Shown: piece after piece, positions 18,418-21,118 of the stretch
Numbering within the stretch: position 1 is the stretch's first letter
Layout of the letters: every line of letters starts with the position of its first letter
Assembly (NCBI GenBank): GCA_018335695.1
Contig: JAGXRV010000032.1
Coordinates: 1-35,618, forward strand
Direction of reading: 5' to 3'
From: Clostridium sp.
GTDB taxonomy: Bacteria > Bacillota > Dethiobacteria > Dethiobacterales > Dethiobacteraceae
DNA: 35,618 nt
Position numbers and translations under genes: made by a program
Notes under the pieces: model-generated
Databases searched by the model: none
What the model saw: the letters and a program-made list of their open reading frames with translations, nothing else
Told to the model about the DNA's origin: nothing

Positions 18418-19071
18418 GTGGCTATCACAATCGGAGGGGCGTTTAGACATAAAAAGCTTTATATCGGCAAACAGGTTCGACTGCTTTGCGCCGGCGCAGA
18501 GCAGGAGTATAGGGCAAAGGTTGTGGAGGTTAAGCAGGAGGCAATATTGCTGGAGCTGTTGGTCGGAGACAATGACGCGCCAAAACTGCTGCCTCAGGGA
18601 CAAATGACTGTGCTTTTTGTAGTTCCTGATGATGCCTCCTATTCTTTTAGCGCTAAAATCATTAACTACGACGAGTCCGCACGGTTGTTGCAACTTGTTC
18701 AGGAGGCTCCGCTCACTAGGACAGAAAAGCGTAGTGATTATCGTCTGAGAACAGCAAAGTTAATTTATATAGCTTTGTGTAGACAGGCTGCTGAGGGCGA
18801 GGAAATCTGGCACCAGTCTAGTTTGCTGGATCTTTCCCGGAGTGGTGCGAGTGTTTTGACTACCCTGCCGATTAGTAAGGGCGATGAGTTAAAGATCTGG
18901 ATTCCGCTTGAAGAAGTCGATCACATTTTGGAGGCAGGAACTAAGGTAGTGCGTGTTTCAGCCGGGGAGGCGGATCAATTGGTCCTTGGGCTGAGTTTTA
19001 GTGAGCTGAGTCTTGCCGACCAGGAAAAAATTCTTGATTATATTCTTAAAGAATGGACAGAGGGAAAATGA
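18418..19071 (+). CDS. PilZ-domain c-di-GMP receptor (YcgR-like)
   Basis: A 217-residue protein with a YcgR-like N-terminal beta domain (about 1-100) and a C-terminal PilZ domain. The c-di-GMP-binding motifs are visible: RSDYR as the RxxxR site and DLSRSGAS as (D/N)xSxxG. Proteins of this build bind c-di-GMP and commonly adjust flagellar motor function or surface behaviour. GTG at 18418 is chosen because GGGAGG (18406-18411) is spaced 6 nt from it; ATG 18412 abuts that site directly. The start is 2 nt past the methyltransferase stop. A degraded repeat begins right after its stop codon. No flagellar genes are in the window. Confidence 0.88.
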   Translation: MAITIGGAFRHKKLYIGKQVRLLCAGAEQEYRAKVVEVKQEAILLELLVGDNDAPKLLPQGQMTVLFVVPDDASYSFSAKIINYDESARLLQLVQEAPLTRTEKRSDYRLRTAKLIYIALCRQAAEGEEIWHQSSLLDLSRSGASVLTTLPISKGDELKIWIPLEEVDHILEAGTKVVRVSAGEADQLVLGLSFSELSLADQEKILDYILKEWTEGK

Positions 19072-19074
19072 CCG

Positions 19075-19104
19075 CAGGGACGGTTCTCGTGGATACCCGT
19101 GGAT
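19075..19104 (+). repeat. Partial REP-type repeat (GGGACGGTTCTC)
   Basis: GCAGGGACGGTTCTCGTGG followed by a short tandem of GTGGATACC resembles half of the GGGGACGG palindromic family seen at 1808-1930. It adjoins family B copy 3. Confidence 0.45.
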
Positions 19105-19209
19105 ACCACCCCGGTGCTACGCACCACCCCTCCAAGGGAGGGGAATTTTGATCGCAGTATTAACCGCAGGACTGACAACCGCAGCCTCTCATTAAACCCC
19201 TGAGGGATC
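19105..19209 (-). repeat. Dispersed repeat family B, copy 3 (inverted)
   Basis: Reverse orientation of 17331-17420, including the ACCCCTGAGGGATC end, with about 15 extra bases (GTCCTGCGGTTAATA) inside. It forms the left edge of the accessory island. Confidence 0.8.
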
Positions 19210-19262
19210 AATAGACTGACTCTCTGTGTTTTGATATAACTTCCCAATAAGAAAAAGCGGCT
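19194..19262 (+). repeat. Island-flanking direct repeat, left copy
   Basis: ACCCCTGAGGGATCAATAGA and the following 24 nt through TTTTGATATAA are identical to 21040-21082. Similarity continues as AATAAGAAAAAGCGGCTAA, which matches the tRNA-Arg terminator region at the right copy. The two copies bound about 1.85 kb holding the toxin-antitoxin pair and the intron. Confidence 0.8.
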
Positions 19263-19372
19263 AAAGGCACGGTTTAATAGGGAAACTTGTTGAACCATAC
19301 CCCAAACCGATACGGAAAAGCGAAAGAAAGGCGTTGTCCCGCAAGGGATGCGCCTTTCTCTTTCTGTTGCAA
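19257..19372 (+). repeat. Structured multi-hairpin repeat (family C), intact copy
   Basis: An approximately 115-bp unit: a 9-bp hairpin with GGTTTAATA and TGTTGAACC arms and loop GGGAAACT; a CATACCCC stretch that could pair with the GGG of that loop; a CCGATACGG mini-hairpin; and a long hairpin (19322-19364) with GAAAGGCG/CGCCTTTC arms. A second copy at 20211-20790 keeps the pairing with compensating changes. It lies upstream of the antitoxin promoter. It does not match a riboswitch class I know. Confidence 0.65.
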
Positions 19373-19409
19373 CCTTGAAAAACAAATTAACGAAAACTCG
19401 AATAATGTA

Positions 19410-19438
19410 TTGCTAAAAGTTATACAATAGAATATAAT
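19410..19438 (+). promoter_or_regulatory. Promoter of the toxin-antitoxin operon
   Basis: -35 TTGCTA (19410-19415), a 17-nt spacer and a perfect -10 TATAAT (19433-19438) lie 26 nt before the antitoxin start. Confidence 0.55.
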
Positions 19439-19464
19439 AAAGAAAAATGAAAGGTGGAATTATT

Positions 19465-19764
19465 GTGGCTATTAAAACAGCAAATGTTCTCGCTCGCGTT
19501 GAACCTGATATAAAAGAAAAAGCGGAATCAATCATGGCAAAGCTGGGAGTTCCGGCTTCCGTTGTAATCAATATGCTCTACAAGCAAATCGTAATGACGA
19601 AGAGTATTCCGTTTCCTTTGTCGATCCCTGCCGCTCCCGTCGCACTTGATGAAATGGACACTGCGACATTTAATACAATTATGCAAAAGGGGTTGGACGA
19701 AGCAAAAGCAGACCGATCCCGTCCTGTTTCTGAGGTATTTTCAGAGTTAAGACGAGGATTATGA
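19465..19764 (+). CDS. RelB/DinJ-family antitoxin
   Basis: A 99-residue protein. Its front (AIKTANVLARVEPDIKEKAE) is a ribbon-helix-helix DNA-binding segment typical of DinJ/RelB antitoxins, followed by LGVPASVVINMLYKQIV and a flexible acidic C-terminus that would wrap the toxin. It neutralises the downstream toxin and should repress its own operon. GTG 19465 is chosen because AAGGTGG (19451-19457) precedes it at 7 nt; the ATG at 19447 lies upstream of that site. The stop is 3 nt before the toxin start. Confidence 0.9.
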   Translation: MAIKTANVLARVEPDIKEKAESIMAKLGVPASVVINMLYKQIVMTKSIPFPLSIPAAPVALDEMDTATFNTIMQKGLDEAKADRSRPVSEVFSELRRGL

Positions 19765-19767
19765 TTT

Positions 19768-20106
19768 ATGGGGGACAAGGTATATTTTGTTAAAATCACT
19801 ACTCAAGCAGACGAACAGTTGCAAGCAATTGTTAAATACATTACTTCTGATTTAAAGGCTCCCAAAGCCGCTTTACGCTTGCTTGACGAAATTGAAAATG
19901 CAACCTCATCGCTGTCGGAGTTCCCTCATCGGGTTGCATTGACAGAGGAAGAGCCGTGGCGAAGCTTAGGGATACATAAAATGCCGGTAAAAAATTTTCT
20001 TGTTTATTTTTGGATTGACGAAGAAAACAGCAAAGTCCAAGTTACTGCCGTTATCTATGGCAAGTGTGACCAAATAAATCAGCTTTCACAAATGAATATG
20101 GAATAA
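19768..20106 (+). CDS. RelE/ParE-family toxin
   Basis: A 112-residue small basic protein: an N-terminal beta strand (YFVKITTQADEQL), two helices (IVKYITSDLKAPKAALRLLDEIENA), then FPHRVAL and a C-terminal strand block ending VTAVIYGKCD. This matches the RelE/ParE fold. RelE members cleave ribosome-bound mRNA and ParE members poison gyrase; the sequence alone does not decide which. The pair is flanked by repeats, typical of mobile addiction modules. Confidence 0.88.
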   Translation: MGDKVYFVKITTQADEQLQAIVKYITSDLKAPKAALRLLDEIENATSSLSEFPHRVALTEEEPWRSLGIHKMPVKNFLVYFWIDEENSKVQVTAVIYGKCDQINQLSQMNME

Positions 20107-20125
20107 AGTTTATACTCCTTTGTAC

Positions 20126-20170
20126 AAAACGAGGACGCTATCTGGAAAGATAACACCCTCGTTTTATTTT
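20126..20170 (+). terminator. Terminator of the toxin-antitoxin operon
   Basis: AAAACGAGG (20126-20134) pairs with CCTCGTTTT (20157-20165), with an inner TATCT/AGATA stem. T-rich sequence follows. Confidence 0.8.
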
Positions 20171-20210
20171 TGGAGATTACCTCATGGTTCAAATAAAAAA
20201 CAAAAGATAT

Positions 20211-20790
20211 GCGCCGAAAGCTACGTTTCAATAGGGTAACTTATTGAACCATACCCCCGTACGGAATCGAGTAGGAGGTAGGTGATTAGTTCACCTATCG
20301 ACCTCTCACACACCGTACGTAGGGTTCCCTATACGGCGGTTCCCTAGTTTACGCCATAGCAGATTTGTAGTAAGAACTGAAACCCACTCTTTTCTAACCT
20401 TTGATTGGATAGGGCGGTTTGTAGGATTTACGCTCTCGCCAGTAGCCTTTTCTTGAGTTCGCCAAGATACCTGCATTGGAGTGGCTGGTTCCCAGATTCT
20501 CCAAATTCCGGTATCTCACTCTCTTCCAACGATTCCGTGTAGCTATTGGGCTTTGACTTGTATTGCAGCCTTACCCTCATCCACAGCCTTATAAGGTTTC
20601 TGTTCGTCAGACCGGAGATTTGCCTCCACCTTCCTTCAGATTCGCAGTCACCCACGACCACCTTGATTTTGGCTATATCCTTCCCACTACCGGGCGGATT
20701 CAGGACTTTCACCTGCTAGAACGTGCGCCCGCTGGGCGCACAATTAAGAGAGAGGCGTCATCCCATGCGGGACAACGCCTCTCTCTTATT
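20211..20790 (+). repeat. Structured multi-hairpin repeat (family C), copy interrupted by the intron
   Basis: The left part 20211-20265 and the right part 20742-20790 together match 19257-19372. The first hairpin is TTCAATA/TATTGAA with loop GGGTAACT. The terminal hairpin TAAGAGAGAGGCG/CGCCTCTCTCTTA (20745-20757 with 20776-20788) is perfect over 13 bp, and its loop is inverted relative to the intact copy. A 476-nt group II intron separates the parts. Confidence 0.65.
20266..20741 (-). ncRNA. ORF-less group II intron, probably class C
   Basis: On the minus strand the element starts with GTGCGCCCAGCGGGCGCAC (the GTGYG 5' consensus), followed by AGCAGGTGAAAGTCCTG of domain I. It ends CCTCCTACTCGAT. 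Domain V lies at about 20309-20342 (GAACCGCCGTATAGGGAACC folding back on CTACGTACGGT) and shows a CGC triad as in class IIC introns. Domain VI (about 20268-20300) has arms around AACTAATC with a branch-point A. It sits directly downstream of a perfect 13-bp hairpin, the usual IIC target. Comparison with the intact repeat copy fixes both ends. At 476 nt there is no room for a reverse transcriptase gene, so movement would need one supplied in trans. Confidence 0.85.
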
Positions 20791-20887
20791 GTTTTGTTTA
20801 AAGAGAAGTTATGCGTTGTTTGCCGCGGGCTGCCTATAAACATTTATAAAATCTCGCATAAGACATATCGATTGGCTAAGCTGCTCT

Positions 20888-21023
20888 GATGTATATCTGA
20901 TTCCACTGCAGAAAGCCTAAGAATCTACAATTTCGTTCATATATGGAATTATATAAAGACTTTACTACTACATATTGTGGTCAAATAACAGAAAAACAGG
21001 TTTTTGCAGTGGAATCATACATC
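20888..21023. mobile_element. MITE-like element with imperfect terminal inverted repeats
   Basis: The left end GATGTATATCTGATTCCACT GCAGAAA and the right end TTTTTGCAGTGGAATCATAC ATC are reverse complements over about 21 bp, with a 4-nt insertion in the left end. They enclose about 87 bp of A+T-rich sequence without coding potential. No clear target duplication is seen. It could instead be a long stem in an RNA. Confidence 0.45.
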
Positions 21024-21039
21024 GATTAAATAAGTAACC

Positions 21040-21118
21040 CCTGAGGGATCAATAGACTGACTCTCTGTGTTTTGATATAATTTTGCAATAAAGAAAGAAA
21101 AAAGAAAAAGCGGCTAAG
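21040..21118 (+). repeat. Island-flanking direct repeat, right copy
   Basis: Identical over about 44 nt to the left copy at 19194, from ACCCCTGAGGGATCAATAGA to TTTTGATATAA. It then diverges through short A-rich insertions and rejoins at GAAAAAGCGGCTAA, inside the tRNA-Arg terminator. Confidence 0.8.

Follow-up and report, generated by a model that had tools for sequence, protein, structure and literature searches.

Bacterial group II intron copies are mostly truncated or inactivated (PMC4424553), and a survey of the Enterobacteriales found intron fragments to be numerous (PMC3522654). With regard to the ribozyme itself, the J2/3 residues A287-G288-C289 act in the catalytic triple helix, while domain III serves as a structural hub (PMC3669008).

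In the 35,618-nucleotide stretch of Clostridium sp. DNA that was analysed in this study (the window), a class C group II intron copy of 476 nt is located on the minus strand, with exact ends at 20266-20741. The copy resembles class C introns that carry a reverse transcriptase (RT), namely the full-length relative L143, the intact intron on contig 45 (C45) of the same genome and, judged by its RT, GsI-IIC, in its GTGCG start, the 5' part of domain I (D1), a domain V (D5) with a CGC triad, domain VI (D6) and the CTCGAT end, as well as in its insertion behind a hairpin and its EBS1-IBS1 pairing. Being short, devoid of an RT and accompanied in the genome by an RT-bearing relative, it is also similar to bacterial ORF-less group II introns; unlike functional members of that group, represented here by a control copy from Bacillus smithii plasmid pDSM4216, it has not kept the ribozyme domains. 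With degraded or fragmented group II copies (PMC3522654, PMC4424553) it shares an internal loss, a broken RT remnant, an intergenic position and single-copy status, and no notable difference from these was evident, both termini of the 476-nt copy happening to survive. We consider it highly probable that this element is a decayed relic of a full-length, RT-bearing class C intron rather than a working ORF-less intron.

Results

Identity and ends of the intron copy

Sequence comparison establishes the ends of the copy, its internal loss, its RT remnant and its insertion site, the coordinates of which are collected in Table 1. The 5' start, at 20741, reads GTGCGCCC, and both ends are those of the full-length relatives L143 and L057. 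The Rfam model group-II-D1D4-3 (RF02001) matched 20657-20484(-) at 96.4 bits (gathering score 32), and Intron_gpII (RF00029), which covers D5 and D6, matched 20341-20266(-) at 35.4 bits (E 8e-5), below its gathering score of 40. D5 has the 29-nt form with a GAAC loop and its fold resembles that of D5 in the intact C45 intron. Descent from class C is indicated by the sequences of domain V and D1 (RF02001; RF00029 below gathering; nhmmer E 5.5e-43), by insertion directly after a terminator-like hairpin, and by a class C-type RT that is present only as a C-terminal remnant, the best matches of which are RTs of class C introns.

The first-pass annotation, made from the letters alone, had proposed a minus-strand class C intron with these same boundaries. 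The class is borne out by the Rfam matches, the CGC triad and the terminal motifs, and the domain V covariance match that such a proposal calls for was obtained, though short of the gathering score; the boundaries agree with the ends of the full-length relatives and with uninterrupted copies of the host repeat. One Rfam result was set aside: the D1-D4 alignment (1-170) is seemingly complete and is misleading, its last part aligning to the RT remnant with many mismatches.

Table 1. Features of the intron copy and its insertion site (positions in the window)
Feature	Position	Strand	Evidence
Uninterrupted paralogous copy of the host repeat	19257..19372	.	Repeat search, alignment
3' exon side: remainder of the genus-specific repeat hosting the intron	20211..20265	.	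Direct repeat, 83% to 19257-19303
Domain VI and 3' end CTCGAT	20266..20310	-	RF00029; end shared with L057 and L143
Domain V: CGC triad, two-base bulge, GAAC loop	20311..20339	-	RF00029 35.4 bits; fold
RT C-terminal remnant continued, frame 3, LARA*ILQTALSNQRLEKSGFQFLLQ	20365..20442	-	hmmsearch E 0.0027; collinear with frame-1 part; stop
RT C-terminal remnant, frame 1, RWKRVRYRNLENLGTSHSNAGILANSRKGYWRERKSY	20421..20531	-	tblastn E 3e-11; hmmsearch E 2.3e-8
Deletion junction (approximate): domain I fused to the RT coding sequence close to the conserved W of QWKK	20530..20531	-	Relative to L143, nt 211 and approximately nt 1620 adjoin
5' part of domain I, GTGCG to model position 212/330	20532..20741	-	nhmmer E 5.5e-43; RF02001 96 bits
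EBS1 (AATA) in loop TGCAATACAAG	20561..20564	-	Position and pairing compared with relatives
IBS1 (AATT), final four 5'-exon bases	20742..20745	-	Pairs 3/4 with EBS1
5'-exon hairpin: 20-bp stem, 4-nt loop GCAT, then ATT before the intron; insertion site	20745..20788	-	Inverted-repeat search; fold -36.7 kcal/mol

Loss of the ribozyme core

A nucleotide profile (nhmmer) built from the 5' regions of full-length class C introns, comprising 330 positions, matched nt 1-210 only. The landmarks GTAAATGC, TTACCCGGGGAGG and GAAGTCAGC (around 220, 258 and 331), present in 35, 35 and 41 of 50 relatives, respectively, are absent from the 476-nt copy; GAAGTCAGC probably contains J2/3, by comparison with the O. 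iheyensis intron. The ribozyme domains I to VI of a functional ORF-less intron are thus incomplete, the profile stopping at 212/330 and the landmarks of the 3' D1-D3 region being absent. The B. smithii pDSM4216 copy, in which no RT is annotated, was matched by the 5' profile over 1-329 and displayed all three landmarks, including the J2/3 motif, one of them with a single mismatch; since this copy passes the same test, the test recognises a genuine ORF-less class C intron. Unannotated ORF-less class C introns that keep the J2/3 landmark were encountered on Bacillus smithii and Pseudomonas plasmids (L163, about 1435-2075; L162, about 1490-2109).

The closest full-length relative, L143 (genome G012), is 1905 nt long with an RT frame of 474 aa, and is 77% identical to the copy over nt 1-211 and 73% over nt 370-476. 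Global alignment of the two places short chance blocks across the lost middle, and the long end blocks alone were used. Gauged against L143, the internal loss amounts to approximately 1.4 kb, a size that rests on relatives at about 75% identity since the exact parent intron was not found. By this comparison, the 3' part of domain I, domain II, J2/3, domain III and approximately 400 RT residues were lost and, relative to the RT-bearing class C introns, the 5' part of D4 is missing as well.

The approximately 170 nt that follow nt 210 (20365-20531) are what is left of the RT C-terminus, frameshifted and divided between two frames, in the correct order and on the correct strand. A tblastn search with RTs returned 58% identity over 38 residues (44 bits), while 20 shuffles gave 23 bits or less. 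The element had been described as free of any complete ORF, which is accurate, and no complete intron-encoded protein is present, but the frameshifted RT remnant persists; with this remnant in place and the above ribozyme parts gone, the designation of ORF-less intron in its usual sense has to be abandoned.

Relatives in the genome and prospects of help in trans

The C45 intron encodes an RT of 469 aa, scoring well above the NCBIfam cut-off, the closest RT of solved structure being that of GsI-IIC. Bacterial ORF-less introns nearly always accompany an RT-bearing relative (PMC4424553), and the 476-nt copy retains its ends, D5 and D6, all of which would suit a functional ORF-less class C intron that is spliced and moved in trans by the C45 RT. 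We regard such a scenario as very improbable, as an RT-coding remnant stands in place of the 3' portion of domain I together with domain II, J2/3 and domain III, D1 is merely 71-73% identical to that of C45, no other copy exists in its own genome, and the deletion junction was not found in any other genome of the class searched (98 in all). The earlier suggestion of movement by a protein encoded elsewhere is upheld in so far as a related intron with an intact RT is present in the genome. Of movement of the short form as such there is no sign, as it has a single copy in its genome and its junction was not found in the other genomes searched.

Two further class C relics, C56 and C5, were detected in the same genome. 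In C56 a 5' part (profile 1-150) is fused to D5, generating a second internal-deletion form that keeps both ends, while D5 was not found in C5. The existence of C56 could be taken to indicate that the short form was inserted already deleted, as a non-autonomous, MITE-like group II element served by a still active helper; yet C56 differs in its junction and 5' part, neither form is repeated, and reverse splicing requires the catalytic core that both lack, making this extremely unlikely. We attach equally little credence to a half intron completed in trans by the RNA of the intact C45 intron, which would be a bacterial example of a group II intron with its core supplied by another copy. Group II introns of a second family, with equal D5 scores, lie at the ends of four contigs of the window's genome, G000 (C16, C57, C76 and C81; L024-L027); this family is probably a multi-copy element that interrupts the assembly.

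Insertion site and host repeat

The 5'-exon hairpin ends 3 nt ahead of the intron 5' end. A hairpin directly before the intron had been noted previously, with a 13-bp stem; its position is correct, whereas repeat search and folding extend the stem to 20 bp. A mir-9201 match at 20738-20794 was rejected, as it coincides with this hairpin and scores 26 bits where the gathering score is 95.5. The relatives' EBS1-IBS1 pairing averages 3.29/4, compared to 2.17 in shuffles.

The repeat copy at 19257-19372 aligns over the insertion point (score 93), as does a third one, from the sister species G003 (C81:102303-102398). The occupied junction reads CTCTCTCTTA-ATT^TCCGTAC and the empty one CTCTCTCTTACATTTCAGTAC. 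The uninterrupted copy at 19257-19372 had been presented as the empty version of the same site, and it does support the boundaries, but the spacer of its hairpin at 19325-19350 is inverted with respect to that of the occupied copy, which makes it a diverged paralogue. In G001, G002 and G003 the flanking matches at the orthologous position lie only about 35 to 170 bases apart; the whole block of approximately 2 kb at 19070-21058, which includes a RelB/ParE-like pair and repeats as well as the intron, is therefore missing there.

Several other elements were observed in this region. The genus-specific repeat (19257-19372; 20211-20265 with 20742-20788), of which G001 and G003 have copies, contains a conserved, foldable stretch of about 55 nt (AAAGGCACGGTTTAATAGGGAAACTTGTTGAACCATACCCC...) beside strong, sequence-variable hairpins, and may represent a structured RNA plus terminator, or else a small mobile repeat. 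The RelB antitoxin and ParE-like toxin pair occupies 19447-20106 of the block missing from the sister species. A MITE-like stretch with 22-nt inverted ends is located at 20893-21022, with similar copies in G001 and G002, and a dispersed repeat with the core CACCCCTCCAAGGGAGGGG at 19105-19171 has dozens of copies in the genus. Finally, the inserted block is bordered at both edges by a 61-nt direct repeat (92%; 19195-19255 and 21036-21096), the second copy of which adjoins a tRNA-Arg gene. This arrangement suggests that the region downstream of the tRNA gene was the site of a duplication or insertion.

Discussion

Normal retrohoming followed by decay in place is the best reading of this locus and fits the literature, being an outcome common among group II introns in bacteria. 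We infer that a full-length class C intron (approximately 1.9 kb) with its own RT would have retrohomed into a short dispersed repeat, behind its hairpin and in the orientation usual for the class, and that a subsequent internal deletion of about 1.4 kb would have fused mid-domain I to the RT's C-terminal codons, stops and a frameshift then presumably building up in what remained. Both exact ends would be kept in the 476-nt sequence because they came from the parent.

Lacking domain II, J2/3 and domain III, the 476-nt RNA should neither splice nor move, retrohoming included, and since J2/3 belongs to the catalytic triple helix and domain III is a structural hub, the C45 RT should not rescue it. 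Two features speak against the relic. D5 is intact, its upper stem carrying paired changes relative to C45 (AGG/CCU in place of ACC/GGU); such changes are expected of a functioning D5 and could equally derive from the parent. Furthermore, EBS1 and IBS1 still pair at three of four positions, which is as expected of a relic that had been inserted normally.

Matches to D5 and D1 with clean ends are insufficient evidence for an ORF-less intron. A published pipeline accepts a D1-D4 match at most 1,300 bases from domain V (PMC8919778), and could thus count the 476-nt relic as such an intron. Outside annotation the relic is of little importance, being an ordinary decayed copy.
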